Assembly (NCBI GenBank): GCA_014728215.1
Contig: WJLZ01000211.1
Location: 1 to 64,000, forward strand
Length of the DNA: 64,000 nucleotides
Direction of reading: 5' to 3'
DNA from: Chitinivibrionales bacterium
GTDB lineage: Bacteria; Fibrobacterota; Chitinivibrionia; Chitinivibrionales; WJKA01
In this document: positions 21,144-42,600 of the stretch, piece after piece
How positions within the stretch are numbered: position 1 is the first letter of the stretch
Layout: each line of letters begins with the position of its first letter
Position numbers and translations under genes: made by a program
The notes under the pieces: generated by a model
Databases searched by the model: none
Told to the model about the DNA's origin: nothing
Seen by the model: only the letters and a program-made list of their open reading frames with translations

Positions 21144-24100
21144 TTATTCCCTATTCCGGAATTCATCGTATGCCCCTCGGATCCGCTTTCTACAGGCCTC
21201 CACAGCATCCATGAAATCATCATAGCCCGCCCCCACTCCCAGGATCCGCTTGGCCAGGGCGATGACGGCATCCCGGTTGGTGGGAATGGCATGTTTCTGT
21301 TGATCTTCGAGTATCTGAAGAGCGTGTTCTATTTTGCGAAGGAATTGGTAGTCCTCCGAAAGCTGCAGTGCGGTATCTGCTGTAATGATCCCGTTGTTCC
21401 GAAGGCGCTCCAGGGCAACAAGAGTGTTACCGTCAATTATGCCGTCACTGGCATGTGTATGAATCAGCTGCAGGCCCTGAACGGTAAACTCGATATCCCG
21501 GATTCCACCGGCTCCCACTTTGACATCAAAAGGTTCATTCCCGGTAGGCGCCTGCTTTTTTATCGCCGAAGCCCGGAGCCGCTCGATCGATTCGATCACC
21601 GTATCCGGCTCCTGTTTTTTCCGGAGTATTTCACGGAATGTTGCGACCAGCGATTCTCCAATTTTTCTGTTGCCGCCAACAGGCCGCAGTTTCAACAGCG
21701 CCTGGATCTCCCACAAGGAGGCTGTTGACGAGTAATAATCGGCAAGGGTCTTGACCGAATTGACAAGCCGTCCGGACCTTCCGTAGGGCCGGAGCCTCAG
21801 ATCGACCCGGAACACATGGCCTTCAACCATATAACTCGACAGGTCGGAGCGGAGGTGCTCGATTACCTTGGCGAAAAGCTCTCGCTCCTTCTCCGTTATC
21901 TCACCCCGAGTTTCATCATAGGCGGCCAGAAGATCGATATCGGAAGAATAATTTAATTCTCTTCCTCCAAGCTTACCAAAAGCGAGAATGCAAAACCGGT
22001 CTTCCTGTTCACCAACATCTCTGTCGCCGGTCTTTTTGCCGGAAAATCCGGCAAATATCTGCTTGAGCGAAACCCGGATGATCCCTTCGGCAAGGTCCGA
22101 TAAATTCCGGGTAATCAACTCCAGGGGCGACCGCAGGCAGATATCGAGTGTTCCGATACGCAGAATTTCCCGTCGTCTGAACTGTCGTAACCGGTGGAGC
22201 CAATCGGTATGATCATGCGCACTTTCGGCGATCCGGCCGAGTTCATTCTCGATAAGATCGGCGGTGGTCTCTCGGCGGAGGTTTTCCGGAATAATCACCC
22301 AGTCTAAAAATCCGGGGTTTCTGATCAGAATATTGGCCAGAAACTGGCTGCCGGCAAATATGGACAAAAGTATTTCGAGCTGCATGGGCTGGGAGAGCAA
22401 CCGTTCGTAATGCTCTTTCCGGGCGCCGACAGCGTTAACGAACTGTTCCCAGTTGTTTAGGGCCATGTCGGCATCGGGTTTATTCCGTAATATGTCACAG
22501 GCCAGAACCGCAAGACGGGCAAAGCTTTCCCGGTCGGCGCCGGCCAGACTCTGTAAGTTGACATAGGCCCGGTCCGGTTTTCCAAAACCGCTTTTGCTCA
22601 ATACCATATGGGCAAGATCAATATCGATATCTTCCAACAGCACAAGATCGGCAACATTACCGATTGCAGGTCCGGGAAGACTCTCTCTTCCGAAATGTTT
22701 TGCCACAAAAGAACGAACGATTGCGGTCTGGGAATCGAAATCGGTGCGTAACTGCTGTGCCGGATGCATCCCGTCTTTCATTCCATACCCCATCCGGCGG
22801 GCAAGATGCATGAATTCATCATCATCGGGTGAAGGTAGAAACAGGTCGGTAGCGGTTCCCCGAAGCATGCGGAGCCCGTTGATCAGGCGGCGGAAAAAGT
22901 CATAGGCCGCAGACAGCCGCAAGCTCTCATCACTGCCCAGTACACCGGCATGAGCCAGTCCCTCGAGGGCTTCGTGAAGGCGGGGGGTTCGAAGAACAGG
23001 ATTATTCTTGCCGTGGATTACCTGAAGCAATTGAACATCATACTCCAGATCCACCAACGCACCGGGATTGAATTTGGCATTCAGTTTTCCCGGCACCTTT
23101 TTCTCGGCATACTGTTTTTCTCTGAGTTCTTTTATTTCCCGCGGCTTGATCGACTGGGATTCATACACAATATCATCACGGATACGCTCGATCTGCGCAC
23201 CGAGCCCCGGATCGCCGCTGATCGTTCTCAGCCGTACCAGAGCAAGCCGTTCATAGGAATGAGCCGGACCGTGGGGTCCGTAATAGTTGCAAAAATTTTC
23301 CAGACTGCTGGCCAGAGGCCCGTCCTTTCCGTAAGGGCGCAGACGAAGATCGATATTAAATATGCCTTCCCGTTTGGTTCTGATTATCCGATTGACCTGT
23401 TTGACCAGACGACTGAAAAATTCTCCATTGTCGACAGCTCGGTTTCCCGTGGTCGTACCGTTATCGCTGTAAACAAAAAGCAGCTCGATATCCGATGCAT
23501 ACCCTAAAGCGGCGCCGCCCAGTTTTCCCAAACCGAAAACCACATGCCGGGCCGGAAGCCCCGCGACCGTACCCGGTTCACCGAATCGTGATATCAGTTC
23601 GTTATAGGCAAGTGACGTTGCGGTATCGACAATAACTTCCGCAAGCTTGCTCAAGTGCTCGGCAAGGGCTTTAAAATCAAACTCCCGGTCTAAAATATGA
23701 TCCAGGTCGATCAGAAAGGCCTCCCGGTCTTTAAACTCGTTAAGCCGCCGCTGCTTTTCTTCCATTGTTGCGCATGAGTCAAGGAGCTGTGTCAGACGGT
23801 CCTTGAGTGTCGTCTCGGGATTGCTGAACCGGTGTCCCCGGGTGTGGGGTCCGATAATCGGAAGAAGTTCTTCATACTGAAGACGGATAAAATCTTCCCA
23901 TAAATAGTCGCTGGCTCCCAGAAGACGGGCCAGTTCCTGAAGTATCCGGGGGTTGGACATGTAGTCGAGCCACTTCTCCTGATCCGGATTTTTGATCATG
24001 TCCTTGACTAGCTGCTCGAACCGGACCAGTGCAACATAGGGGTTGGGTGATTGACCGAGAAAATAGGTAAACTGTTTGGTGAGGAGTACCGACAGCTTAA

Positions 24101-24929
24101 TCTGGTTGATCGACGATGTCTCGGTGAGCTTTTTTCCGAACCGGTCGACAATATCGATAATATCCTGTACCCTGCCGTCCACGGTGCTGATACTCACCTG
24201 CTCGATTGACATATCATTGAGCGATAAAGCATTCGAAAGGGAATAGAGAAACGCAGGTGTATCTTCAGAAGCAACTTTCAAGCGGGTCCAGGGCCCTTCA
24301 TCGTTATCAACATCGATACTTACCGGATACAAGACCGGCGTGGAGTCGTACTCGATTCCATCAAGGTGATCGGCAACCAGCTGATTGACATTCCGCCGTG
24401 CCTTTTCAAGCGAGGGATCATCACCCTTCTCGAGCAAGGCGATTGCCTGTTCCAGCTGACCGGTCAAGTTTTTCTTCCAGTCATTCCAGGATTGGCGGGT
24501 GGTCAGTATGCCGGTGAAATGGTCCACGATCCTCCGCCGCATCAGGGGATCTTCGGTAATCCGGCGCCGGGAATACCGTCTCCGGTGCAAAGCCCGGTTC
24601 GCCCGGACCGTATCCCTCGAATAGGTAAACACATTCCCCGCCAGGATATCCAGCCCGAAAGAATTGAGTATCCCCGTAATGAGGGCAAACACCGATGGAT
24701 AATCGAATGACAAAACCGTGCAGCCCACCGAATTCTCACCGAACCGGTCGAAAAGCACCTCCACCGGATGATCGCTTTTCACCCGGGAAAGGGCAGTAAT
24801 ATGACCCGCAATCTGATACTCCTCAAACCGGTTGAAATACCGCTCATCCAGCCGCTCAAGATGGTTCCGGATAAAAGCATCAACAACCGATCCACAGGAG
24901 GACTTTATGTGTTCTGGTGATAGTCTCAT
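21144..24929 (-). CDS. glnE: Glutamine synthetase adenylyltransferase/deadenylylase with N-terminal ACT domains
   Basis: 1261 residues, about 300 longer than usual GlnE. Both nucleotidyltransferase modules are present: GLGKLGGAALGYASDIELLF (467-486) with VDLEY near 626, and AFGKLGGRELNYSSDIDLL (983-1001) with GAGGIRDIEF (1139-1148). The first module has Glu in place of the second catalytic Asp (SDIEL, not SDIDL). The added N-terminus has two stretches that look like ACT domains (about 66-104 and 214-262), the latter with edtPaFLysLsnaL and a DGR turn, as in the C-terminus of GlnD. The enzyme should add and remove AMP on GlnA, whose target Tyr409 is present at 35013-36458. Confidence 0.85.
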   Translation of the reverse strand: MRLSPEHIKSSCGSVVDAFIRNHLERLDERYFNRFEEYQIAGHITALSRVKSDHPVEVLFDRFGENSVGCTVLSFDYPSVFALITGILNSFGLDILAGNVFTYSRDTVRANRALHRRRYSRRRITEDPLMRRRIVDHFTGILTTRQSWNDWKKNLTGQLEQAIALLEKGDDPSLEKARRNVNQLVADHLDGIEYDSTPVLYPVSIDVDNDEGPWTRLKVASEDTPAFLYSLSNALSLNDMSIEQVSISTVDGRVQDIIDIVDRFGKKLTETSSINQIKLSVLLTKQFTYFLGQSPNPYVALVRFEQLVKDMIKNPDQEKWLDYMSNPRILQELARLLGASDYLWEDFIRLQYEELLPIIGPHTRGHRFSNPETTLKDRLTQLLDSCATMEEKQRRLNEFKDREAFLIDLDHILDREFDFKALAEHLSKLAEVIVDTATSLAYNELISRFGEPGTVAGLPARHVVFGLGKLGGAALGYASDIELLFVYSDNGTTTGNRAVDNGEFFSRLVKQVNRIIRTKREGIFNIDLRLRPYGKDGPLASSLENFCNYYGPHGPAHSYERLALVRLRTISGDPGLGAQIERIRDDIVYESQSIKPREIKELREKQYAEKKVPGKLNAKFNPGALVDLEYDVQLLQVIHGKNNPVLRTPRLHEALEGLAHAGVLGSDESLRLSAAYDFFRRLINGLRMLRGTATDLFLPSPDDDEFMHLARRMGYGMKDGMHPAQQLRTDFDSQTAIVRSFVAKHFGRESLPGPAIGNVADLVLLEDIDIDLAHMVLSKSGFGKPDRAYVNLQSLAGADRESFARLAVLACDILRNKPDADMALNNWEQFVNAVGARKEHYERLLSQPMQLEILLSIFAGSQFLANILIRNPGFLDWVIIPENLRRETTADLIENELGRIAESAHDHTDWLHRLRQFRRREILRIGTLDICLRSPLELITRNLSDLAEGIIRVSLKQIFAGFSGKKTGDRDVGEQEDRFCILAFGKLGGRELNYSSDIDLLAAYDETRGEITEKERELFAKVIEHLRSDLSSYMVEGHVFRVDLRLRPYGRSGRLVNSVKTLADYYSSTASLWEIQALLKLRPVGGNRKIGESLVATFREILRKKQEPDTVIESIERLRASAIKKQAPTGNEPFDVKVGAGGIRDIEFTVQGLQLIHTHASDGIIDGNTLVALERLRNNGIITADTALQLSEDYQFLRKIEHALQILEDQQKHAIPTNRDAVIALAKRILGVGAGYDDFMDAVEACRKRIRGAYDEFRNRE

Positions 24930-25257
24930 GTTTTAAACATCTCAGATTTCATGTTTTTTGAGTATAGGGTATAGGGATCGACAACAATATCAATCCTCGT
25001 CTTCCATCTTTTCTTCACTCCACCTCCCCAAAATACTTCACCTCCCTCTCCCACCCCAAAAAGCACAAATTTGTACTGCGCCGTCTTATTCGAAACGAAT
25101 ATGTTATGCTTTCGGTTGGTCGGCAACACCTTCCTTTTATATATAAGGTAAAGGCTCACTTAATGGCACATCCATTGCATTCCAACCCTGCATGTGCATA
25201 AATCGGCACAAGGAAAAAAATACACCATTTCATTCATTTCTCATAAGGAGGTGCAGT
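24930..25257. other. Divergent intergenic region between glnE and the porin-amtB operon
   Basis: It contains a low-complexity GAGTATAGGGTATAGGGAT string at 24959 (a similar inverted string lies near 54456-54490), an ACAAATTTGT palindrome at about 25068 and the sigma54 promoter at 25164. No gene is seen. Confidence 0.45.
25164..25179 (+). promoter_or_regulatory. sigma54 promoter of the porin-amtB-glnK operon
   Basis: TGGCACATCCATTGCA is an exact consensus match. Predicted start is near 25191, with a 67-base leader to the ATG at 25258, showing that the in-frame start at 25192 is too early. Confidence 0.85.
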
Positions 25258-26385
25258 ATGCACAAATTCATTACCTTACTTGGCGCCGTTTTAGTAACGA
25301 GCCTCACCCTTGTCCACGCTGATGACCACGAAAAGGTCTCTTTCAGCGGTTATCTTGATTCGGATGTCTGGACCGACTTTTCCGGAAACTTTTTCAGCAA
25401 CGATGAACTCGATCTGAGCATGGCGATCCGGTTTTCCGATAAAGTGAGTGCTTCGGTCTGTGCAACAGTTGCCAGTGGAACCATTCCGGCAGGTATGGGA
25501 TTACCCGGTGGTGAAGATGTTTCCGTGTATGAGTTGGCCAATGATACCTTCGAGATTACCGAAGATTATTCCCGGTGGGTAGCGATTACGTTCGACGGTG
25601 TCTCGATATCTTACGAGAGCCCGATCGGCACGTTCACGGTGGGTGACCTTGTCTATCAGTTCGGTGGATTCAACTACTATTTCTACAAACGGCTCAGCAT
25701 GATCACCGAAGAGAGCTTTACCCGCGGTGTCGGCTATTCTTTTGGGAACGAGGCGCTTACGCAGAGTATTCTCGCCGGTTCGGCAGATATCAATCAGGTG
25801 GGCGATCTTGTGGGTATTACCTCACTTGCCTTTGGTGAAGAAAACAGCCTTTCACTCTACTATGGAGTCCGAGGAAGTATTTATGAACAATTCAAGACAG
25901 GCTCAATGCTCTTTGCCGGACTGGAATACCTGGGTTCGATTGGCGAGATGATTTCGTTGAAATTCGATTTAGGTTTGCAGAATCTCCCTGGTGAAGAGCG
26001 TTCTACCGCCTACACCCTGCTCTTCGAACCGGTATTTACAGCCGGTGATTTCAGCACGGCAATGAGCGTCTATACCTTTATCGATCCCGATTCGACTGGA
26101 GCGAATTTTGTGGAGGATGAATTCTATGCTTATATCGAGCCGGGACATGCCTTTACCGATGTCCTTGCTGCAGGACTACCGCTCGAAATTCATACCACCG
26201 ATCTGGATGAGTTCAGTGACGCCGGATCATTCTGGGTAGTACCGACACTGTATGTCTATCCTGCCGACGGCGTTGAATGGTGGATATGGGGGCAGGTTGT
26301 CGCACCGCTTGGTGATGGTGATGGTGATGGTGAAACTGATGATCTGAGTTATGGCCTTGGTTCGGAAATAATTGTGACATTTTAA
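25258..26385 (+). CDS. Outer-membrane beta-barrel (porin-like) protein of the ammonium operon
   Basis: 375 residues from ATG 25258, preceded by a strong AAGGAGGTG. A signal peptide ends near VHADDHE. The remainder alternates polar and hydrophobic residues in the manner of a beta-barrel and ends in YGLGSEIIVTF, with the terminal Phe recognised by the BAM machinery. A GDGDGDGETDD loop precedes the last strand. I do not recognise a named family. It sits 18 bases before amtB under a sigma54 promoter, so it is predicted to let ammonium or a small nitrogen compound cross the outer membrane under nitrogen limitation. Confidence 0.7.
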   Translation: MHKFITLLGAVLVTSLTLVHADDHEKVSFSGYLDSDVWTDFSGNFFSNDELDLSMAIRFSDKVSASVCATVASGTIPAGMGLPGGEDVSVYELANDTFEITEDYSRWVAITFDGVSISYESPIGTFTVGDLVYQFGGFNYYFYKRLSMITEESFTRGVGYSFGNEALTQSILAGSADINQVGDLVGITSLAFGEENSLSLYYGVRGSIYEQFKTGSMLFAGLEYLGSIGEMISLKFDLGLQNLPGEERSTAYTLLFEPVFTAGDFSTAMSVYTFIDPDSTGANFVEDEFYAYIEPGHAFTDVLAAGLPLEIHTTDLDEFSDAGSFWVVPTLYVYPADGVEWWIWGQVVAPLGDGDGDGETDDLSYGLGSEIIVTF

Positions 26386-26403: not shown

Positions 26404-27744
26404 ATGCGAATAAAAAATTGTATACCAGGCATTCTTCTTATCGGGGCGGCATATCCTGTGCTTGCCGAGGAAGTAGCCGCTATGCCGCAGGAACACGGCA
26501 ACATGCTCTGGACACTTATTGCTGCGATACTGGTATTCTTTATGCAGGCAGGATTTGCAATGGTCGAGAGCGGATTTACCCGTGCAAAGAATGCAGTGAA
26601 TATCATGATGAAAAACCTGATGGACTTTTCAATCGGTTCGCTGGGATACTGGGTGATCGGTTTTGCCCTGATGTTCGGGGCTACTGCCGGTCATTTTATC
26701 GGCACCACCGGGTTTTTTCTGTCTGATGCCACTCCGGGCAAGGAAGGATGGGAGTGGGCGTTGGTCTTTTTCATGTTCCAGACTGTCTTTGCGGCAACCG
26801 CTGCGACCATTGTCTCGGGCGCTATGGCCGAACGGACAAAGTTTACCAGCTATCTTATTTACAGTATCCTGATCAGCGCAGTTATCTACCCCATCTCGGG
26901 ACACTGGGCCTGGGGAAGTCTTTTCAATGGCGAAGGTTGGCTTGAGAAAATGGGCTTTATCGACTTTGCCGGCTCCACCGTTGTTCACAGTGTTGGCGGA
27001 TGGTGTGCTCTTGCAGGAGCGATCGTTTTAGGTTCACGGACCGGGAAGTATACCGCTGATGGTAAATCGAGAGCGATTCCCGGCCATAATATCCCCCTTG
27101 CGGCACTGGGCGTATTTATTCTCTGGTTCGGATGGTTCGGGTTTAACCCCGGTTCGACTACGACGGCGGATATGAGCATCGGACGGATTGCCGTGACCAC
27201 CAATCTTGCCGCGGCTGCCGGCGCTGTTGCTGCAATGCTTACCGCATGGATTATCATCGGTAAACCAGATGGTTCCATGGCGCTCAACGGCGTGCTCGCA
27301 GGACTGGTGGGTATTACTGCTCCCTGTGCGGATGTCTCGCCGTTCAGTGCGGTCATTATCGGTCTTGTCGCCGGTATCCTTGTGGTGATTGCGGTTCTGT
27401 TTATCGATAAGACCCTAAAAATCGATGATCCAGTCGGTGCGGTCAGTGTTCACGGTGTCTGCGGCGCCTGGGGAACCCTCGCTGCCGGACTCTTTGCCGA
27501 AGAAGCATACGGTGGTAATGCCGGCCTCTTTTTCGGTGGTGGATTAAAACCGGTCCTTGTTCAACTCACCGGAATCGGCGCGGTATTTCTCTGGGCGTTC
27601 GGTTTAGCAATGGTCATGTTTCTTGTAATTAAGCATACGGTCGGCCTGCGCGTCAAAAAAGAAGAAGAACTCAGTGGGTTGGATATCGGTGAACACGGTA
27701 TGGAAGCCTACAGTGGATTCCAGATATTTACTACGGAAAGCTGA
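26404..27744 (+). CDS. amtB: Ammonium transporter 1
   Basis: 446 residues with a signal-peptide-like first segment and about eleven membrane helices. Family motifs are clear: FFMQAGFAMVESGFTRAKN, the pore twin histidines in [10 protein letters not shown] (His195) and SVHGVCGAWG (near 349), and the DPVGA turn. It moves ammonium/ammonia across the inner membrane. A Shine-Dalgarno GAGGAGG precedes the start. It is followed 45 bases later by glnK, the usual partner that blocks the channel when nitrogen is ample. Confidence 0.95.
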   Translation: MRIKNCIPGILLIGAAYPVLAEEVAAMPQEHGNMLWTLIAAILVFFMQAGFAMVESGFTRAKNAVNIMMKNLMDFSIGSLGYWVIGFALMFGATAGHFIGTTGFFLSDATPGKEGWEWALVFFMFQTVFAATAATIVSGAMAERTKFTSYLIYSILISAVIYPISGHWAWGSLFNGEGWLEKMGFIDFAGSTVVHSVGGWCALAGAIVLGSRTGKYTADGKSRAIPGHNIPLAALGVFILWFGWFGFNPGSTTTADMSIGRIAVTTNLAAAAGAVAAMLTAWIIIGKPDGSMALNGVLAGLVGITAPCADVSPFSAVIIGLVAGILVVIAVLFIDKTLKIDDPVGAVSVHGVCGAWGTLAAGLFAEEAYGGNAGLFFGGGLKPVLVQLTGIGAVFLWAFGLAMVMFLVIKHTVGLRVKKEEELSGLDIGEHGMEAYSGFQIFTTES

Positions 27745-27789
27745 GTCCTGATTCTGTAACCGGCAATTCTTTCAAAGGAGAAAACATAT

Positions 27790-28131
27790 ATGAAACTGAT
27801 AATAGCGATTATTCAGCCCCAGAAGTTGCCTGATGTCAAAAAAGCGCTTCTGGATGCCGAAGTACACAAGATGACGGTCACCAATGTGATCGGAGCCGGT
27901 CAACAGGCCGGATACACCGAAAGCTATCGGGGCAATATCTTTGAAGTAAACCTGTTGAAAAAAATCCGCCTCGAAATTGCGGTCAATGATGATTTTGTTC
28001 AAAAAACTCTTGATGCCATTATTAAAGGTGCACGCACCGGCAATATCGGTGACGGCAAAATCTTTATCCAGGATCTCCCTCAATGCATCCGGATACGTAC
28101 CGGTGAGGAAGGCTCTTCAGCCATAGGCTGA
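27790..28131 (+). CDS. glnK: PII signal-transduction protein 1, Phe at the usual Tyr51
   Basis: 113 residues, normal PII length. Conserved parts: IIQPxKLxDVKKAL at the start, the T-loop [18 protein letters not shown] in the B-loop and IRTGEEG at the end. Tyr46 is present, but position 51, which is uridylylated in enterobacterial GlnB/GlnK, is Phe (RGNIF). Covalent modification at that site is therefore not possible, and control must come from ATP/ADP/2-oxoglutarate binding or another residue. It is linked to amtB and is expected to gate it. Confidence 0.95.
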
Positions 28132-28154
28132 TTTTTTCCACAACTCCTTGATAG

Positions 28155-28189
28155 GGGCACGGCCTGCAGTGCAGGGTGTGCCCTTTTTT
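28155..28189 (+). terminator. Rho-independent terminator after glnK1
   Basis: Stem arms GGGCAC (28155-28160) and GTGCCC (28178-28183), with an inner GC-rich loop, followed by six T (28184-28189). It closes the porin-amtB-glnK operon. Confidence 0.75.
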
Positions 28190-28254
28190 CAGGTTGAGGG
28201 AGAGGGCAGGGTAAGCAAAAAGTGCTGCGTTTCAACATTCAACACACCGACAGC

Positions 28255-28316
28255 ACTTCGATCACGTTCAGTATACCAGCTCAGTGCATCGCTTGCGACT
28301 TCCGAGCTTAGAACTT
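28255..28316. repeat. Dispersed intergenic repeat, copy 1
   Basis: A segment around 28269-28295 (AGTATACCAGCTCAGTGCAT and onward) is closely matched by 33041-33066 (AGTGTACCAGCTCAGTGCAG and onward). Both are flanked by TTCGAC/AACTTTC-type pyrimidine-rich strings. A third, weaker relative may lie near 7668-7715. Confidence 0.5.
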
Positions 28317-30602
28317 CTACTTTCGACCTTCATTCAATCCGTCTTTATACTCCCCGATATACCGCTCGATATCTTTCAGCGAAGAGTATCCCAGCAGGGT
28401 TTCTGCATACTCGACCGCTTCGGGTAGAGAGACTTTCCGTATATGTTCCTGGATCCGGGGGATGAATAGGGGGTCCATGCTCAGGCGTGTAATGCCGATA
28501 CCGATAAGGAACGTGACATATTCTTCACTGTGGGCCATCTCTCCGCAGACCGATACAATTTTGTTTTTCGCTTTCCCGGCCCGGGCGATTTTGGCAAGGG
28601 CGCGCAGTACCGACGGATGATGGGGTTTGTAAAGGTGGGCCACTTTGATATTAGTCCGATCGACCGCCAGCATGTATTGGATAAAATCATTGGTGCCGAT
28701 CGAAAAGAAATCGGCAATCCCGGCAAAGTCATCGATTATATCCACCACCGACGGCAGCTCGACCATCATGCCGATGCGGGGTGATTCATGATAGACATCC
28801 CCTTCATTTTTCAGATCTTCGAGGCAGGTGGTAACCAGTTCCCGGGCCGATTCGAATTCATCCAGCGATGATATCATGGGAAACATGATATGGAGCCCGG
28901 TTCCCTTCGCTGCCCGGAGGATCGCTCGGATCTGCTGCTTGAAAATATCTCTGTTTCTGAGGATGAAACGGATCGAGCGCATTCCCAGAAAGGGATTGTT
29001 TTCTTTGAAATTATTAAAATATGAAAGTACCTTGTCGCCTCCGATATCGAGAGTGCGAAATGTCAGTATCCTGTTTTCCATTTTCTCCGCTACCCGACGG
29101 TATATCATCAACTGTTCTTCCTCGGTAGGAAAGGTAGAGCGGATCATGAAGGGGAACTCTGTTCTATAAAGCCCGATTCCGGCGACATTCATCTCCCGGG
29201 CGTTGCGGATATCGGCAAGAAGGTTGATATTTGCCAGAAGGTCGATCTGCTGTTTGTCCCGGGTAATCGTTTTTGATTTTGCTTTGCCGCGGATTTTTTT
29301 GCTCTCTTCCCGCGCCGCATGCTGCTGCATAAAGGTATCAACCACCGGATCATCCGGATCGATATAGACATTTCCAACACCGGCATCGAGCAGCAACAGC
29401 GTATTGTCGGGCATATCGAGCAAACCGGGTTCATCGCAGATAATCAGCGGGATTTTCAGAGAGCGGGAGAGTATTGACATGTGGGATGTTGCACTTTCGG
29501 AAACAACAACCGCTCCCAGGGCCCCCTCTGCAGCAAGGATCAGCATCTCCGAGGGAAGCAGTGTTTCGGCAATAACAACTTTTTTGTGTGCACTCGACAA
29601 TCCATACTTTTTGCCGCTTAAATTGCTGAGAATGCGCAAGGACAGATCAAGAACATCATGCGCCTTCTCCCGAAGGTAGAGATCTTCCTTTTCCTCAAAG
29701 GCATGAATATATTCCTGCGCCACTCCGGCAACGGCATCGGGGGGCGAAAGTCCCTTTGAAATCAGTATTTCCATCTTGCCCACAAAAAACCTGTCTTTCA
29801 ATAAAAGCAGATGGGCCGAGAAAATCATTGATGCCATATCCGACAGCCGTTCTTCAACCTGGTCCTGAAGCAACCGAAGCTGGGAAGCGGTTTCTGAGAG
29901 AGCATGCTGAAAGTCTTCAAGGGTAAGCGTGGTATCCGGCTTTACTTGGGATATCTTTTTAAGTGAAACCTTGCGGTCAACCACCAGGGAGGGCCCGTAG
30001 GCAAACCCCAGACTCGCACCCTGACCTTTAATGAACTTTTGTGTTATCGGATGATGTATTACCTTGTTGGGAACATGGTGTTCCGTTATTTCGAGGATAA
30101 GCTGAGCATTTTCGATACTCGATGCCAGTTGATTCGATACCGCCTGCATGGTAGCGAGTTCATTATGGGTAAAACCTTCATTGTTCTCCCGCTGTATAAC
30201 CAGTACGCCGATTTTTTTAATGCCCCGGAGAATGGGAACGGCTAAAAATGATTTAAACCGCTCTTCATCGAGCCCTTTGAACAATCGGAAATTGGGGTGT
30301 TCCTCGCCGGATTTTACGCTCAGTGCACGAAGCTCCTTAAGCGCAAGTCCGGTTATACCTTCACCCAGCCGCAACTTAACCGTATCGATCATTTTACGAT
30401 TAAGCCCGACAGTGGCCTTCAGGGTAAGAACTTCATCGAGAGCATCGAAAAGATACACCGAACATACTTCCGCACTCGTATGCGCAGCGACCATCTCAAC
30501 TGTCTTCTGCAAAAAGGTCTCGACCGTAGAACCTTCCGAAAAAGCCCAGTTCAGCTCACCAAAATCACAAAGAAACTGAATATGATTCTTTTTTCGTATC
30601 AT
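28317..30602 (-). CDS. ptsP: Nitrogen-PTS enzyme I (EI-Ntr) with GAF domain
   Basis: 761 residues. Residues about 20-165 form a GAF sensor domain. The linker (ASLGFAYGPSL, 196-206) starts the enzyme I N-terminal part. The phosphohistidine loop is ATSHMSILSRSL with His374. The C-terminal PEP-binding barrel has GIGLYRTEFPFM, MVELPS, FFSIGTNDFIQYMLAVDR and the catalytic VCGEMAH cysteine. It should autophosphorylate from PEP and pass phosphate to an HPr-like protein, none of which is encoded in this window. A possible downstream IIA acceptor is the HTH-IIA fusion at 56799. Position between two amtB-glnK units supports a role in nitrogen signalling. Confidence 0.9.
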   Translation of the reverse strand: MIRKKNHIQFLCDFGELNWAFSEGSTVETFLQKTVEMVAAHTSAEVCSVYLFDALDEVLTLKATVGLNRKMIDTVKLRLGEGITGLALKELRALSVKSGEEHPNFRLFKGLDEERFKSFLAVPILRGIKKIGVLVIQRENNEGFTHNELATMQAVSNQLASSIENAQLILEITEHHVPNKVIHHPITQKFIKGQGASLGFAYGPSLVVDRKVSLKKISQVKPDTTLTLEDFQHALSETASQLRLLQDQVEERLSDMASMIFSAHLLLLKDRFFVGKMEILISKGLSPPDAVAGVAQEYIHAFEEKEDLYLREKAHDVLDLSLRILSNLSGKKYGLSSAHKKVVIAETLLPSEMLILAAEGALGAVVVSESATSHMSILSRSLKIPLIICDEPGLLDMPDNTLLLLDAGVGNVYIDPDDPVVDTFMQQHAAREESKKIRGKAKSKTITRDKQQIDLLANINLLADIRNAREMNVAGIGLYRTEFPFMIRSTFPTEEEQLMIYRRVAEKMENRILTFRTLDIGGDKVLSYFNNFKENNPFLGMRSIRFILRNRDIFKQQIRAILRAAKGTGLHIMFPMISSLDEFESARELVTTCLEDLKNEGDVYHESPRIGMMVELPSVVDIIDDFAGIADFFSIGTNDFIQYMLAVDRTNIKVAHLYKPHHPSVLRALAKIARAGKAKNKIVSVCGEMAHSEEYVTFLIGIGITRLSMDPLFIPRIQEHIRKVSLPEAVEYAETLLGYSSLKDIERYIGEYKDGLNEGRK

Positions 30603-31002
30603 AATACTTCAACTAAGCAATGCAATAAATATACCTATTTTGCCATGCCCATGTCCTGTTCCTGAGGGGATTTTCCATGATACTTTTCCGTATCAAGCCT
30701 ATTTAAAGGTTTCCCACAAAGCGGGACATATGCTGGGCCCGGCAAAAATTCAGTAAGAAACGCACAGACTCTAGGGGCCAAAAACCTTCTCCTTCGACTT
30801 TCAATTTTCGACCTTCACCCCTCGACCTTCGACACAATTTCGTGCCGCCATTCCCGGCATAACACGATAATGTACAGCCACTAACCTGTCAATGCTCATT
30901 TAACAATGTATAAGGCTGTTTTATTTGGCATTGTGATTGCATTCTACCTTGATCGAATTGTGCGCAGTTCCTTTTTCATTGTGCTTATCAAGGAGTTTTT
31001 CT
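30603..31002. other. Divergent intergenic region between ptsP and amtB2
   Basis: It contains pyrimidine-rich CTTTCAATTTTCGACCTTCACCCCTC-like low-complexity DNA near 30793-30830 and the sigma54 promoter at 30926. On the minus strand, 30621-30636 reads AGGTATATTTATTGCA, a weak sigma54-like site only about ten bases from a usable transcript start for ptsP. No gene is seen. Confidence 0.4.
30926..30941 (+). promoter_or_regulatory. sigma54 promoter of amtB2-glnK2
   Basis: TGGCATTGTGATTGCA matches TGGCAY-N5-TTGCA. Predicted start is near 30953, about 50 bases before ATG 31003, ruling out the in-frame start at 30937. Confidence 0.85.
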
Positions 31003-32328
31003 ATGAAGTTTTCTGCAAAAGTACCTGTTCTTTTTCTCATTCTCACCGGCGCGGCCGTATCGCCGCTTTTTGCCGCTGATGGTTCAGAGATCAATCTGAT
31101 CGACACGCTCTGGATCCTCGTTGCCGCCTTTCTGGTCTTTTTTATGAATGCCGGTTTTGCATTTGTCGAGACCGGGTTCTGCCGGGCTAAAAATGCAACC
31201 AATATTCTGGGTAAAAACTTTACGGTCTTTGCAATAGCAACGCTTGCTTTCTGGGCACTCGGCTATGGAATCATGTTCGGCGCGGGTGAAGGACTGATCG
31301 GTACAAATTCGTTTTTTGTTGGTGAAACGGCAAATAATCCTGCTCCCAATTTACCGGTCTTTGCCTTTTTCTTTTTCCAGGTTGCCTTTGCCGCGGCAGG
31401 ATGCTCGATTATATCCGGTGCGGTTGCCGAACGGATCAAATTCAATGCCTTTTTACTTTTTGGAACCCTGATGGTTGCGTTCATCTATCCTCTGGGTGGC
31501 CATTGGGTATGGGGCGGCGGATGGCTTTCCGGACTGGGATTTCACGATTTTGCCGGTTCTACCGTTGTTCATTCTGTTGGCGGTTGGGCTGCGCTGGCCG
31601 GAGTTTTGCTCCTTGGCGCACGGATCGGTAAATACAACCACGATGGCAGCACCAAGGCAATTTTGGGTCATTCCATCCCCCTTGCCACGCTGGGCGGGTT
31701 TATTCTGTGGCTCGGATGGTTCGGGTTTAATCCGGGAAGTGAGCTTGCCCTCAACGGCAATGTCCCCCGTATCGCGCTTACCACCGCACTGGCATCATGC
31801 GCAGGAATTGTTTCAGCCATGACAACCGCCTGGATAATAAGCGGCAAACCCGATCTATCAATGATTATCAACGGTTGTCTTGCCGGCCTGGTGGCTATTA
31901 CCGCTCCCTGTGCTGTTGTAAACCCCACCGGATCGATAATCATCGGACTCATTGCCGGTACCCTGGTCGTGCTTGCCGTACTGTTTTTTGATAAACTGCA
32001 TATCGACGATCCTGTCGGAGCGCTGGCCGTTCACCTCGTTAACGGCATCTGGGGAACCCTCGCTGTCGGCCTCTTTGCGGTAAACGGCTATATCGACGGC
32101 GTCACCGGCCTCTTTTACGGTGGCGGTGCAACACAACTCGGTATCCAGGCTCTCGGCATAATCGGCGTCGGCCTTCCCGCCTTTGTTCTCTCCCTGATCT
32201 TCTGGTCTATTATCAAAGCTACTGTGGGGTTGCGGGTAACCAGAGAAGAGGAAATCGGCGGACTGGATATTGGCGAGATGGGCATGGAAGCCTACAATGG
32301 ATTTCAGATCTTTACTACTGAAAACTAA
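31003..32328 (+). CDS. amtB: Ammonium transporter 2
   Basis: 441 residues from ATG 31003 with an AAGGAG Shine-Dalgarno. It begins with a signal-peptide-like segment ending near FAADG, then has the family motifs [29 protein letters not shown] and [16 protein letters not shown]. It is a diverged paralogue of the gene at 26404: similar length and C-terminus ([15 protein letters not shown]), different signal peptide and some loops. It has its own sigma54 promoter and its own glnK 103 bases downstream. The window thus has two independent sets of ammonium uptake genes. Confidence 0.95.
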
Positions 32329-32431
32329 TATGGACAAATTCCAAATGTGTATCTCGTTGTTCAAAATGATAGTATTAAATTTCAGATCCGTTACCCTTCG
32401 ACCGGTAACTATTTATTAAGGAGCAGTATAT

Positions 32432-32773
32432 ATGAAATTGATCATAGCAGTAATACAACCGACAAAATTACCTGATGTTAAAAAGGCGCTTTTCGATGCA
32501 CAGGTTCATAAAATGACCGTTACCAATGTTATCGGCGCTGGCCAGCAGGCTGGCTACACCGAGAGTTATCGGGGCAATATCTTTGAAGTCAATCTTTTGA
32601 AAAAGATCCGTCTCGAAATTGCCGTAAACGAGCAATTTGTAAAACCCACTATCGACGCAATTATCGAGGGTGCCAGGACCGGGAATATCGGTGATGGAAA
32701 AATTTTCGTTTTGGACCTTCCCCAGTGTATCCGGATACGGACCGGTGAAGAAGGATCTGAGGCAATTGGATAA
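32432..32773 (+). CDS. glnK: PII signal-transduction protein 2, Phe at the usual Tyr51
   Basis: 113 residues, nearly identical to the PII protein at 27790, including the whole T-loop from [16 protein letters not shown] to [10 protein letters not shown]. Position 51 is again Phe, so the loss of the uridylylation tyrosine is shared and not a chance mutation. Differences are mainly in the 20-25 and 67-80 regions. A Shine-Dalgarno AAGGAG lies eight bases before ATG. A small gene follows after four bases. Confidence 0.95.
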
Positions 32774-33100: not shown

Positions 33101-34660
33101 CTAGTGCCTGAACCGCTGGTAATCGATTTTGTACTTGGTAATTTTGTATTGGATTATCCGCTTGGTGGTTCCAAGGATTTTAGCGGCTTCGGTCTGATTT
33201 CCCCGGGCATCTTTAAGAGCATCCACGATAAGCTCCTTTTCGTAGGCAGCGACCAGGTTGTTAAAGGTGTTTCTGATTCCTCCGGTTTCGGCTCCCATTT
33301 CTTTCATCTGGAGTGTTGGCGGAAGGTCATGACCTTCAACGCTGTTTGATCCCGCTACCAGGACCGCCCGTTCCATGACATTTTCCAGTTCTCTGACATT
33401 TCCCGGCCAGTGATATGAAGACAGCATATCGATTGCCGGCGTTGATATACGGCTGATCTTTTTGGAATGGATAGTGCTGTATTTTTTAGCAAAATGATCT
33501 GCCAGAAGGAGAATGTCAGCGCCCCGGTTCCGGAGAGGCGGCAGCACAATGGTAAAAACATTGACCCGATAATAGAGGTCTTCACGGAAAACCCCCTCTT
33601 TGACGTCATTTTCGAGGTCCCTGTTGGTTGCGCATATCAGACGGACATTGACTTTTACCGAATCGAGGCCGCCTACCCGCTGTATCTCCTTTTCCTGGAT
33701 TGCCCGCAGGAGCCTGCTCTGGGCACTCGGGGTCATCTCACCGATTTCATCGAGAAACAGCGTACCATTGTTCGCAGCCTCAAAGCGTCCGATCCGACGG
33801 GAAACGGCGCCGGTAAAGGAGCCTTTTTCGTGGCCGAAAAGTTCACTTTCTAAAAGCGATTCGGGAAGCGATGCACAGTTTACGGCAATGAAATGGCCGT
33901 CTTTTCGCGGGCTTTTCTGGTGAATTGCCCGGGCAACCAGCTCCTTGCCGGTCCCCGTGTCACCGCAGATAAGTACCGTTGTTGGTGATGACGATACCTG
34001 AGCGATCTGACGGAAAACCTCACGCATGGTACTGCTGTTCCCGATCATCTCACGGGGCCGTCCCATGTCTTCGAGCGACCTGCGGAGTTCCAGATTCTCC
34101 TTTTCAAGCTCCGAAATCCGTTCATTGCTTTCCCGGCGCTCCAAAACCAGTTGCGAGACCAGATCACCCACCGCCTCTAAAAAATCAAGCTCGTTCTCGA
34201 GCTTGTCTTTGTTGCCGTTGGTCACCCGGTCGACCGACAGTGTTCCGATAACATTTCCTTTGGCCTTAACCGGAACACAGAGAAAGGCGATATTCGAGCT
34301 TTCAAGGTTACTCCGCGCGCCGGTCCTGTCTAAAAATGCAGGCTCATCTTTTAATTTCGGAATAACAATCGGTTTGCCGCTCTGAAGAACTTTGCCGGTC
34401 ACCCCTTCACCCGGGCGGTACCTGCCCCGCCGGCGGTCGGGCTCGGAAATCCCATGGGCAACATCGAGAATTAATTCGGTGTTGTCCTTACTCAATATGG
34501 TAATCATGCCCCGGTTCATACCCGCATGAATCTCGAGAATTTCCAAGACATTAACCATTATCTTCTCAAGATCACCACCCGCACCCAATACACGGGCAAT
34601 ATGGTAAAGTACCGAGACACCATTAAAACTAAGATCCGAATTTATTTCTTTTATAACCAT
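33101..34660 (-). CDS. NifA-like sigma54-dependent transcription activator (GAF-AAA+-Fis)
   Basis: 519 residues. GAF domain about 15-175; a coiled linker 175-200 ([17 protein letters not shown]); AAA+ domain 205-440 with Walker A GDTGTGKE (233-240), the sigma54 loop GSFTGA (280-285, Ser for the usual Ala), Walker B LFLDEI and the arginine-finger region [13 protein letters not shown]-terminal Fis-type helix-turn-helix [20 protein letters not shown] (488-507). It should activate sigma54 promoters, and several lie in this window. The overall layout matches NifA, but no nitrogenase genes are present here. Its gene lies between amtB2-glnK2 and glnA. Confidence 0.9.
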
Positions 34661-36915: not shown

Positions 36916-39549
36916 ATGCAGCCATTAAAAAAAGTTCACACATCGATGAGCACCGGCCTCAAAGGACTCGATCAAACCATTCACGGCGTATTGCCCGGAG
37001 ACAATATAGTTTTCCAGGTCGATAATATCGACGATTACATCCCCTTTGTTCATCCCTTCTGCTATCAGGCCAATCGGGAAAACCGGAGCCTTATTTATTT
37101 CAGATTTGCAGACCATCCATGGCTTCTGCCCGAGGATGTAAAAGCGGAAATTCATCAGCTCCACCCCGAAGACGGGTTCGAGACCTTCATTTCCGAGATT
37201 TTTGATGTTATCGAACGCCAGGGGCTCGGCGCATGTTATGTCTTCGACAGCCTTTCGGAATTATCGGTGGACTGGTACAGCGACCGAATGCTCGGTAATT
37301 TCTTTATGCTCACCTGCCCCTATCTCTACGATTTTAAAACCGCCACCTATTTTGCGCTCCAGCGGGATCATCATATGACTGTCGCCACCCAGGCCATTCA
37401 TACGACCGCTCAGGTGGTACTCGATGTGTACTGCAATAAAGGAACGATATATATCCACCCCCTGAAAGTGTGGAAACGGTATTCACCGACCATGTTTATG
37501 CTCCATGCCCGGCATGGTGATAAATTCAGGCCGGTAACCGGCAGCACGGGTATTGCCGAGATCATGGGTTCAATCTCCCAGGACTGGCTCGATTTCAGCT
37601 TTCAGAATTTAGATGTCTGGACCCGGACTTTCGGCCAGGCACGGGAGTGTCTTCAACAAGGCCCCGATAATGACCAGGCCTACCGCGAAGCAAAAATTCT
37701 GCGCGACCGCCTGCTTCGAATGGCCATTACCCGCGACAACCGCCTTTTAGAACTGGCACAGCAACATTTCGATCTTATCGATCTGGTGGAAATCGGCAAA
37801 CGGATGATCGGCACCGGCCTGATCGGCGGTAAATCGGTGGGCATGCTTCTGGCACGGGCGATCCTCAGGAAAAACGATCCCCGGTGGAAAGAAATTCTCG
37901 AAACCCACGATTCGTTCTTTATCGGATCCGACCTCTTTTACTCGTACCTGATAACCAACGGATGCTGGTGGCTGCGGCGAAAGCTGAAACTCTCCGGTGA
38001 GATACTCGACGGCTCCGAGGATGTTCAACGGAAAATCCTCTCGGGAACTTTCCCCGATGATATCAAGGCCCAGTTCAGCAATATGCTCGACTATTTCGGC
38101 CAGTCACCGATCATTGTCCGCTCGAGCAGTCTTCTGGAAGATGCCTATGGGAATGCCTTTTCAGGAAAGTACGAAAGCGTGTTCTGCGCAAACCAGGGAT
38201 CCCCACCCGATCGCCTCGAAGAATTCATGGATGCAGTACGGACAGTCTATGCCAGCACCATGCGAAAAGAGGCGCTGGCCTACCGGAAACATTGGGGACT
38301 CCTGGACCAGGATGAACAGATGGCCCTTCTTGTGCAGCGTGTTTCGGGCGATATCAACGGGACATTCTATTACCCCCATGTCGCCGGTGTCGGATTCTCC
38401 TTTAATCCCTATGCCTGGTCACCGGATATCGATCCCGGAAAAGGAATGCTTCGCCTGGTATTCGGATTGGGGACCCATGCGGTCGACAGGGTGGATGACG
38501 ATTATACCAGGATTGTCGCGTTGAACGCGCCCGACAAAAGACCTGAATCCAATTTTGATCAGGTGCGAAAATATGCCCAACGGAGAGTCGATGTGCTGGA
38601 TTTAAAAGAAAATCGGCATATTTCCCATGATTTCGAAAATGTCGCTCAAAACGCAAGCGATCTCCCGCTCGATATTTTTGCATCGCGGGATGAAGAAATG
38701 GAGCGACGGGCACGGGAACATAAAATGAGCACTGTCTTTTCCTATGTCCTTACCTTCGATAAACTTCTGAAACAGACCGATTTTGTTTCGGATATGCGCT
38801 CCATGCTTCAGATACTCCAGAAAGCATACAACTATCCGGTGGATATCGAATTTACGGCAAACTTTGTTGAAGAAAATTTATACCGGATAAATCTTGTCCA
38901 GTGCAGGCCCTTTCAGGTAAAAGGCGAATTCCGGACCGTTGAATCACCGGGCAAAATCGCCATGAAGAATATCATCTTTCAAACCAGGGGCCCCATTATC
39001 GGCAACAGTATCTCCGATACAATCGAACGCCTGGTCTATGTGGTTCCCTCACACTACACCAGTCTCTCCATGAACGAACGGTATTCACTTGCCCGGGTTA
39101 TCGGCAAACTGACCCATCTGCACGAAAAAAATAATTCGGTGCAAAAAACAATCGCGCTTATCGGTCCCGGACGGTGGGGAACGACATCGCCCTCACTCGG
39201 TGTGCCTGTCTCCTTTACCGATATCAACACCGTATCGGTGCTCTGCGAACTGGCGTTTATGCATGAAGGACTGATTCCGGATGTCTCGCTGGGAACCCAT
39301 TTTTTTAACGATCTGGTCGAAATGGACATGCTCTACCTGGCGATCTATCCCAAACGTGAAGGTCATAGATTCAACGAAAACTTTCTCATGTCGTCCCCGA
39401 ACCGTTTTCCCGAATTGCTGCCCGATGCGGCATCGTGGAGTGAATGTATCAGGGTGATCGACTTTGAAAACTTCGACAGCAAACGCAATATATGCCTCAA
39501 TGTTAACGCACTGACCCAGGAAGGAGTATGCTATATTGACCGGGAGTAA
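36916..39549 (+). CDS. Degenerate KaiC-like domain fused to a PEP/pyruvate dikinase ATP-grasp domain
   Basis: 877 residues. The N-terminal ~200 residues follow the RecA/KaiC pattern (MSTGLKGLDQTIHGVLPGDNIVF, then YVFDSLSEL at 108-116), but the P-loop Gly-Lys-Ser/Thr is replaced by VDNIDDY, so ATP hydrolysis there is unlikely. Residues about 290-690 match the PPDK_N nucleotide-binding domain (GLIGGKSVGM 301-310; VRSSSLLEDAYGNAFSGKYESV 401-422; RINLVQCRPFQ). The swivelling phosphohistidine and PEP-barrel domains are absent; a ~190-residue C-terminal extension is unassigned. It is followed 87 bases later by gltB, so a link to glutamate synthesis or its control is inferred. Confidence 0.75.
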   Translation: MQPLKKVHTSMSTGLKGLDQTIHGVLPGDNIVFQVDNIDDYIPFVHPFCYQANRENRSLIYFRFADHPWLLPEDVKAEIHQLHPEDGFETFISEIFDVIERQGLGACYVFDSLSELSVDWYSDRMLGNFFMLTCPYLYDFKTATYFALQRDHHMTVATQAIHTTAQVVLDVYCNKGTIYIHPLKVWKRYSPTMFMLHARHGDKFRPVTGSTGIAEIMGSISQDWLDFSFQNLDVWTRTFGQARECLQQGPDNDQAYREAKILRDRLLRMAITRDNRLLELAQQHFDLIDLVEIGKRMIGTGLIGGKSVGMLLARAILRKNDPRWKEILETHDSFFIGSDLFYSYLITNGCWWLRRKLKLSGEILDGSEDVQRKILSGTFPDDIKAQFSNMLDYFGQSPIIVRSSSLLEDAYGNAFSGKYESVFCANQGSPPDRLEEFMDAVRTVYASTMRKEALAYRKHWGLLDQDEQMALLVQRVSGDINGTFYYPHVAGVGFSFNPYAWSPDIDPGKGMLRLVFGLGTHAVDRVDDDYTRIVALNAPDKRPESNFDQVRKYAQRRVDVLDLKENRHISHDFENVAQNASDLPLDIFASRDEEMERRAREHKMSTVFSYVLTFDKLLKQTDFVSDMRSMLQILQKAYNYPVDIEFTANFVEENLYRINLVQCRPFQVKGEFRTVESPGKIAMKNIIFQTRGPIIGNSISDTIERLVYVVPSHYTSLSMNERYSLARVIGKLTHLHEKNNSVQKTIALIGPGRWGTTSPSLGVPVSFTDINTVSVLCELAFMHEGLIPDVSLGTHFFNDLVEMDMLYLAIYPKREGHRFNENFLMSSPNRFPELLPDAASWSECIRVIDFENFDSKRNICLNVNALTQEGVCYIDRE

Positions 39550-39636: not shown

Positions 39637-42600
39637 ATGAGACAACCAGCCCGGGGATTATATGATCCGGCATTCGAGCATGACAATTGCGGCGTCGGAT
39701 TTGTCGTCAATGTCAATGGCCAGCAATCACATCAGATCGTTGCCGACGGTATTACCATTCTGAAGAATCTTGTCCATCGCGGAGCGATCGGCGGAGACAG
39801 TAAAACCGGTGACGGTGCCGGGCTTTTAATCCAGATACCTCATCTGTTTTTTCAGGAAGAAGCTCATCGACTTAATTTCAAACTGCCCGGGGAAGGCGCC
39901 TATGGTGTCGGCATGCTTTTCCTTCCTCAAAAAGACGATGATCGCAAAAGGGCATGCGAACTGATCGAAACAACTGTCGGCCAGGAGGGCGGTTATGTTC
40001 TCGGATGGCGTGACATTCCGATCAACCCCGACTGCCTCGGTGAAATGGCCCGGGAAAGCATGCCTTTCATGAAGCAGCTCTTTATCGCGCTGAAAAAGCG
40101 TACCGACGACAATCTCGAACGGAAACTCTATGTTGTGCGCCGGTGCCTGGAAAAGGCCGCGGGTGAGCAGGGATTCTCGATCGAAGATTTTTATGTTTCA
40201 TCGCTCTCCTGCAAGACAATCACCTATAAGGGGCTCTTTGTCGCCCCCCAGTTCGAGGACTTTTTCCCCGATCTCAGAAACAAGGACGTTCAAAGCGCCT
40301 TTGCACTTGTCCACCAGCGCTACAGCACCAATACCTTTCCATCGTGGCCCCTGGCCCAGCCTTTCAGATATCTGGCCCACAACGGGGAAATCAACACACT
40401 CCGGGGGAATATCAATAAAATGAATGCCCGGGAAACAACCCTCCAATCGAAACTCTACGGCGATGATATCGATAAGCTTCTTCCCATTATCGATCCGACA
40501 TCGAGCGATTCGGCCATATTCGACAATGTTTTCGAACTTCTTTCTCACAGCGGAAGATCGATCGAGCATTCGGTGATGATGATGGTTCCCGAGGCCTTTG
40601 GCCCCAAGTATCATATCAGTCAGGACAAGCGTGCATTCTATGAATATCATGCTGCGATTATGGAACCCTGGGATGGTCCTGCGGCGCTGGTTTTCACCGA
40701 CGGCACCAAAGTCGGCGCCTCTCTCGACAGAAACGGCCTCCGGCCGGCACGGTTCGTGGTGACCAAAAGCGGCCGTGTTATCATGGCATCCGAGGTCGGT
40801 GTGCTCCCGGTTCCCGCAGAAGATATCCTTCAGAAAGGACGGCTCGCCCCCGGAAAGATGCTTCTGGTTGACACAAAAAAAGGACGGATCCTTTACGACA
40901 ACGAAATAAAAGCTTCGGTGTCGAGGCAGAAACCATACCGCCGGTGGCTCGAAAGCAACCGGATCGAGCTCCGGGGCCTCTTTCAACCCCCCGGCCCGAT
41001 CCCCCATGCCGACAACAATAATGCAACCGAACAGAAAATTTTCGGCTATACGCTCGAAGACCTCTCAATGATTATTTCTCCCATGGCCATTAACGGACAG
41101 GAACCGGTCGGCTCCATGGGCAACGACGCCCCCTTAGCGGTGTTATCGCACCGTCCGCAACTTCTGTACAACTATTTCAAACAGCTCTTTGCCCAGGTGA
41201 CAAACCCACCTATCGATCCCTATCGTGAAAACCAGGTCATGTCGCTCATGAGTTTTATCGGTAAAGAACAGAACCTGCTCGATGAAACCGCAATGCACTG
41301 CCGGCAACTCAAACTCCCCCACCCCATCATAATCAACGAAGATATCGAAAAACTCAAATCGGTTGATGAAGACGGGTTCAGGGGAACGGTAATCTCGATG
41401 TGCGCACCGGAAAACGACAACCACTGGGATCTGAACAAGGCGGTGGAAAACATCTGCACCCGGGCGGAACGGAGCGTCGATGATGGCTATTCACTGATTA
41501 TTCTCAGCGACCGTGACATTGACAAAGATAACATCCCGGTGCCTGCGCTGCTCGCCGTTTCAGCAGTCCATCATCACCTGGTAAAATGCGGAAAACGACA
41601 GTTGACCGGCCTGGTGGTCGAAACCGGCGAGGCCAGAGAAGTCATGCATTTCGCCACCCTGATCGGATTCGGTGCAAGTGCGGTTAATCCCTGGCTTGCC
41701 TTCGAGTGCGTCGCCCAGCTTAAAAGGGAAGGATGGTTTCCCGACGACCTGAAGCTGGAAACGGCAATCGATAATTATATCACGGCTATCAAAAAGGGCC
41801 TTCTGAAAATAATGTCGAAAATGGGTATTTCCACGATCCGTAGTTACCGGGGGGCTCAGGTTTTCGAAGCGGTCGGCCTTAACACTGACATTGTAAGCCG
41901 CTTCTTTCCCGGAACACCCTCCCGTATTGAAGGTATCGGGATCGAACAGATTGCCCGGGAAACACTGGAACGTCACCGGCAATCCTTTACCCTTGCCGAC
42001 ACCGATCCCCGTCAACTCAACTCGGGCGGCAACATCCATTACCGCCGTTTTTCCGAACGCCATCTTATCAGCCCGGAGGCCGTCACGCTGATTCACCAGG
42101 CGATCAGGGAAAACGATTATACAGCATATAAATCCTATGCAGACCGGGTTAATCACGCGGAAAAAAGCCTCTGCACACTCCGCGGGCTGTTCCGGTTCAA
42201 AAAACAGGAGCCGATAGCTCTCGAAGAAGTTGAGTCTGCAGATTCAATTGTCAAGCGTTTTGTCAGCTCGGCCATGTCTTTCGGTTCGATCAGCAAGGAA
42301 GCCCATGAGACCATAGCGATAGCCATGAACCGCCTGGGCGCGGCGAGTAATTCGGGTGAGGGGGGCGAAGATGAAGAGCGTTTCAAACCCCTTCCCAACG
42401 GCGACAACAAAAACAGCATGGTCAAACAGGTCGCCTCGGGCCGTTTCGGAGTCAACAGCGCCTACGTGGTCAGCGCCAGAGAGCTTCAGATAAAAATGGC
42501 TCAGGGAGCGAAACCAGGTGAGGGTGGTCAGTTGCCGGGACACAAGGTAAACGAGATAATCGCAAAAGTCCGTCATTCGACTCCCGGTGTCATGCTGATC

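Follow-up and report, generated by a model that had tools for sequence, protein, structure and literature searches.

The window, by which we mean the whole 64,000-nucleotide stretch of DNA that was analyzed, carries a glnE-like gene in a single intact frame on the minus strand, and a search of the genome found one gene of this kind. A sequence-only reading of the locus had described a GlnE of about 1261 residues with two full nucleotidyltransferase modules and had left out the strand. Pfam agrees with that description: PF03710 (GlnE, 329.8 bits) and PF08335 (GlnD_UR_UTase, 142.8 bits) each match two stretches of the protein, and each PF03710 module is followed by a PF08335 helical domain. Two tandem amt-PII cassettes span 26404-32773; their PII proteins are 88% identical, and a gene for a GAF-domain PTS enzyme I (PtsP-like) separates them. 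The protein encoded next to glnA combines a GAF domain, a sigma54 activator domain and HTH_8 and lies near NifA (508.8 bits; cut-off 528.9), and in several relatives its homologues adjoin glnA, glnE or both. The gene between glnE and amt encodes a 397-aa protein without a Pfam match, possibly an outer-membrane protein, which occupies the same place in three other genomes (G036, G037 and G039). Between glnA and gltB lies the gene for an 877-aa protein in which only PPDK_N, the ATP-binding domain of PEP synthase, was matched, at residues 302-674.

Table 1. Features of the glnE locus in the window; residue numbers are those of the glnE product.
Feature	Position	Strand	Basis or remark
glnE-like gene	21144..24929	-	1261 aa; ACT-ACT-nucleotidyltransferase module 1 (AT-like)-module 2 (AR-like)
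Second nucleotidyltransferase module, residues 800-1261	21147..22532	-	Like canonical N-terminal (deadenylylating) module; D997/D999/D1043
First nucleotidyltransferase module, residues 292-750	22680..24056	-	Like canonical C-terminal (adenylylating) module; D480/E482/D527 (SDIE)
ACT2, residues 203-291	24057..24323	-	Pfam, hhalign, AlphaFold2
ACT1, residues 56-168, with disordered insert 103-132	24426..24764	-	hhalign, AlphaFold2, Foldseek
Helical lead-in, residues 17-49	24783..24881	-	Colinear with the GlnD stretch after the HD domain; HLERLDERYFNRFEEYQIAGH
397-aa protein	25192..26385		No Pfam match
Ammonium transporter Amt, first copy	26404..27744	+	Profile match
PII protein, Phe at position 51 (YRGNIF)	27790..28131	+	Profile match, alignment
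GAF-domain PTS enzyme I (PtsP-like)	28317..30602	-	
Ammonium transporter Amt, second copy	30937..32328	+	Profile match
Second PII protein, Phe at position 51	32432..32773	+	Profile match, alignment
NifA-like GAF-sigma54 activator-HTH_8 protein	33101..34660	-	Below cut-off
Glutamine synthetase, only one found in genome	35013..36458	-	Tyr409 aligns with E. coli GlnA tyrosine
877-aa protein with PPDK_N	36916..39549		
Glutamate synthase large subunit (GOGAT)	39637..44175	+	

An NCBIfam GlnE model starts near residue 278 of the window protein, and the N-terminal extension has no counterpart in the 946-aa GlnE of E. coli. Pfam on the window protein gave only a sub-threshold match to ACT_7 (E 0.25), and PF01842 (ACT) was matched in 14 of 24 relatives with the same architecture, which we call ACT-GlnE; as Pfam by itself does not recover these domains in the window protein, no conclusion was based on single-domain scans. 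The NCBIfam GlnD models match all 24 ACT-GlnE members, and in the window protein they align residues 19-281 with GlnD positions ~620-919 at E values of 2e-18 and 1.5e-17, so that the resemblance is not due to chance. When the 24-member alignment was compared by hhalign with GlnD of E. coli and of four genomes from the window's phylum, the N-terminus matched with a probability of 99.2% (E 2.4e-19) over 231 colinear columns, GlnD columns 643-877, so that residues ~17-281 of the window protein are homologous to the double-ACT region at the C-terminus of GlnD and follow it in the same order. These matches support a GlnD-like origin of the extension.

Structure prediction agrees with the profiles. 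AlphaFold2 modeled the N-terminus with a pLDDT of 85 and a pTM of 0.86 and predicted two ACT folds, at residues ~56-168 and ~203-291, the first of which holds a disordered insert at ~103-132. The ACT-like stretches proposed from the sequence (66-104 and 214-262) fall inside these two domains, although each covers only part of one. In Foldseek searches the matches of the N-terminus included the threonine dehydratase regulatory domain, the GL3 ACT-like domain, PGDH and the 180-kDa glutamate dehydrogenase (GDH) of M. smegmatis, the last being the best match; no solved GlnD ACT structure was among the matches listed. A PDB sequence search seeded with the profile of the N-terminus returned no convincing ACT chain, and a plasmid search for the ACT N-terminus returned no match. 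The full-length model reached a pTM of 0.66, with a low-confidence linker at ~338-364. Profile search and structure prediction of the N-terminus, the check that the sequence-only reading had proposed, thus confirm its observation of a GlnE with an added N-terminal double-ACT region.

The genome is a draft of 229 contigs, a circumstance that would suit a wrong joining of two genes by assembly or gene calling in a metagenome-assembled contig. That explanation is refuted by the recurrence of the architecture in independent assemblies, as 24 proteins from three phyla share it without stops at identities of 29-70%, and we give it practically no credence.

We then considered how far the family extends. 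A contig search with the full window protein recovered relatives from Chitinivibrionales (70% identity), candidate division FCPU426 (52%) and an unclassified metagenome-assembled genome (49%); as such a search reaches close relatives only, other phyla may also hold ACT-GlnE. Among 168 genomes of the window's phylum, GlnE occurs in 16, the ACT extension occurs in the same 16, and plain GlnE was not detected. ACT-GlnE is present in 8 of the 45 genomes of the phylum of the FCPU426 genome and in 3 of 44 of a third phylum, where other genomes have plain GlnE with open frames of 1055-1156 aa. Two genomes of the window's own order (G002 and G017) have PII but no detectable GlnE, and control of glutamine synthetase (GS) by adenylylation appears patchy in the window's phylum.

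Module trees place ACT-GlnE in one conserved family with two sister branches. Type A, which comprises the window protein, its order, FCPU426 and the third phylum, was found in 16 genomes of three phyla, and the divergent type B in 11 genomes of two families of the window's phylum (f10 and f11). The two branches differ in the company they keep: GlnD scoring above the TIGR01693 cut-off is present in 11 of 11 type B genomes and in 0 of 16 type A genomes, a count that is made on draft genomes and carries the caveat of incompleteness. No GlnD over this cut-off was found in the window's genome, which is 96% complete, and the window GlnE itself scores 63 bits against a cut-off of 519 and is not a full-length uridylyltransferase with an HD domain. 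Because type A is a single clade, the absence of GlnD may reflect one or a few events rather than 16 independent ones.

In E. coli GlnE, removal of AMP falls to the N-terminal domain and its attachment to the C-terminal one (PMC12409994). Having fixed a module-swap hypothesis ahead of tree building, we found that E. coli GlnE alone does not discriminate between the ACT-GlnE modules, and canonical GlnEs of other groups were therefore added. In the tree with four canonical GlnEs, ACT-GlnE second modules grouped with canonical first modules (support 83/76), and the AU test rejected the canonical pairing (p 0.0117). With ten, drawn from Gammaproteobacteria, Alphaproteobacteria, Actinomycetota and metagenome-assembled genomes, the swapped grouping rose to 93/96, just under the starred support level, and the AU test again went against the normal order (p 0.004). 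Profiles built from canonical first (deadenylylating, AR) and second (adenylylating, AT) modules, which classified 20 of 20 canonical modules correctly in a leave-one-out control, gave the same picture: for all 24 second modules of ACT-GlnE the AR profile beat the AT profile by 19-67 bits, and 22 of the 24 first modules preferred the AT profile, the other two being slightly AR-like. Discrete diagnostic residues agree as well, the second module carrying Arg1144, Asn993, Gln1205 and His1213 as in canonical AR modules where the first carries Val626, Gly476, Arg687 and Asp695 as in most canonical AT modules.

These results have to be weighed against the canonical order, AR then AT, in which the second module would have become AR-like by gene conversion or unequal rates and the first would be a fast-evolving AR module. 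The first modules do sit on a long branch, the log-odds signal is spread unevenly over the modules, and the E. coli adenylylating domain ranked first in PDB searches; a Foldseek search with the whole model did not tell the modules apart. Both AU tests, the profile assignments with their controls and the diagnostic residues nevertheless run against canonical orthology, and we consider it improbable. Unlike in canonical GlnE, where the deadenylylating module comes first, the catalytic modules of ACT-GlnE thus appear, as judged from sequence comparison, to stand in reversed order, adenylylating-like and then deadenylylating-like.

The acidic residues of both modules (D480, E482 and D527; D997, D999 and D1043) are invariant in the 24-sequence alignment, with Glu replacing Asp at 482 of the first module (DxE). 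The sequence-only reading had pointed to this Glu as a departure from a usual SDIDL motif. The Glu itself is real, since the first module reads SD[ILM]E in all 24 members; as the first module is AT-like, the Asp that its Glu stands for is that of an SDLD-type rather than an SDID-type motif. PDB titles name E52D mutants of ANT(4'), another nucleotidyltransferase, whose Glu52 we take to occupy the same place as Glu482 of ACT-GlnE. Inactivation of the first module by DxE was rejected, given the Glu in all members and in ANT(4'), and on the alignment the SDIE Glu is a family trait rather than damage.

The one GS detected in the genome is encoded in the window and would be the target of this putative enzyme; its Tyr409 lines up with the tyrosine that is modified in E. 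coli GlnA (DKNLYDLPPEE). Just upstream of ACT-glnE, on the same strand and ~100-360 bases away, glnA is found in G039 and G182 as well as in six type B genomes; in the type B loci (L095-L098, L103 and L104) the two genes adjoin, suggesting that they form an operon. That PII could not be uridylylated at position 51 had also been proposed from the sequence, and Phe51 in both window PII proteins is in line with it. The Amt-type PII proteins of other type A genomes carry some other non-Tyr residue at this position, and the PII sequences read from GlnD-containing genomes carry Tyr51. G002 has no GlnE, no GlnD above the cut-off and two PII copies read without Tyr51, which indicates that loss of Tyr51 tracks loss of GlnD and not the presence of ACT-GlnE. 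Three loci of the FCPU426 phylum (L183 in G183, L184 in G187 and L185 in G182) have divergent extra PII paralogues, several of which have Tyr in the position-51 column despite the absence of GlnD.

A glycine in the beta1-alpha1 turn is typical of ligand-binding ACT domains, being common and not essential to the fold. The window protein has Ser79 in ACT1 and Ala226 in ACT2 instead, and among type A proteins the glycine is lost from ACT1 in 13 of 13 and from ACT2 in 11 of 13, with Ala taking its place in ACT2 in 9 of 13, the window protein included. Type B ACT1 keeps it. In PGDH, this glycine is placed at the ligand site (PMC3173338). Glutamine regulates GlnD (PMC4285133) and is regarded as being sensed by the ACT domains of that protein (PMC3173338), and by this analogy glutamine would be the likeliest ligand of the ACT pair of the window GlnE. 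A different reading is that the pair senses another effector, such as glutamate or some other amino acid, or is a ligand-blind platform for dimerization or docking, for instance of PII or GS, with nitrogen control exerted through unmodified PII (2-oxoglutarate, ATP/ADP). Loss of the ligand-site glycine from most type A ACT domains, at the very turn where types A and B differ, and the two PII genes near glnE in the window speak for this reading. It has to contend with the retention of lead-in helix, ACT1, linker and ACT2 in all 24 proteins of three phyla, which suggests that the sensor architecture matters, and with the fact that ACT1 of E. coli GlnD (DRPYLF) also lacks the glycine, so that its loss is not fatal to a glutamine-sensing model. 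We regard the non-glutamine or platform reading as a serious possibility, if a minority one, and retain glutamine as the preferred effector. The sequence-only proposal that GlnE may itself sense glutamine is thereby partly supported, namely by the two ACT domains, their GlnD-like origin, the PII proteins without Tyr51 and the lack of GlnD in the genome.

Set against our GlnE references (E. coli GlnE, NF008292/NF010707, and PDB 1V4A and 3K7D), the window protein has in common with GlnE the two nucleotidyltransferase modules with helical domains, the intact acidic residues and a GS with the target tyrosine; unlike canonical GlnE, it has ~290 extra N-terminal residues that contain two ACT domains, and DxE in the first module, and it falls under the NCBIfam equivalog cut-offs for GlnE (475.5 against 625 bits and 473.3 against 487 bits). 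With GlnD (TIGR01693) it shares the succession of lead-in helix, ACT1, linker and ACT2 that follows the HD domain there and corresponds to window residues ~17-281, but it is without the GlnD-type uridylyltransferase module or HD domain, and the sensor is N-terminal on a different enzyme. The literature offers a likeness in Arabidopsis ACR11 and ACR12, ACT-only proteins whose GlnD-like ACT pair stands apart from GlnD and has been connected with glutamine synthetase (PMC3173338), although, unlike the window GlnE, these plant proteins have no catalytic domain. In the open-access literature (subscription papers being outside the scope of the search) we found no description of ACT domains on GlnE or of a reversed GlnE.

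The bicyclic cascade of GlnD, PII and GlnE is a textbook case of covalent enzyme regulation, running in E. coli from glutamine through GlnD, PII-UMP and GlnE to GS. We lean, on balance, toward reading the window protein as a bifunctional GS adenylyltransferase and deadenylylase formed by fusion of the GlnD C-terminal sensor to the N-terminus of a module-swapped GlnE, with the nitrogen signal coming from the ACT pair and the effector being likely glutamine. In bacteria without GlnD, the ACT pair would replace the signal that GlnD and PII-UMP give in E. coli. An amino-acid effector, most likely glutamine, would bind at the pair, which would gate both opposing activities: with the effector abundant, the first module would adenylylate and so inactivate GS, and with the effector scarce, the second module would strip the AMP from GS. 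Unmodified PII may contribute a 2-oxoglutarate or energy signal.

The wider proposal, which we hold more tentatively and at somewhat under an even chance, is that several poorly studied phyla possess a GlnD-free nitrogen circuit in which a module-swapped GlnE has taken over the glutamine sensor from GlnD and the cascade has collapsed to glutamine, GlnE and GS. If true, this would be a natural shortening of the cascade, with the GlnD sensor directly on GlnE, the module order reversed and a PII without Tyr51, and it would explain the control of GlnE in bacteria that lack GlnD. It would also provide a single-protein system for the switching between opposing activities by ACT domains. In the closest relatives without GlnD, one protein may thus both sense nitrogen status and act upon it.
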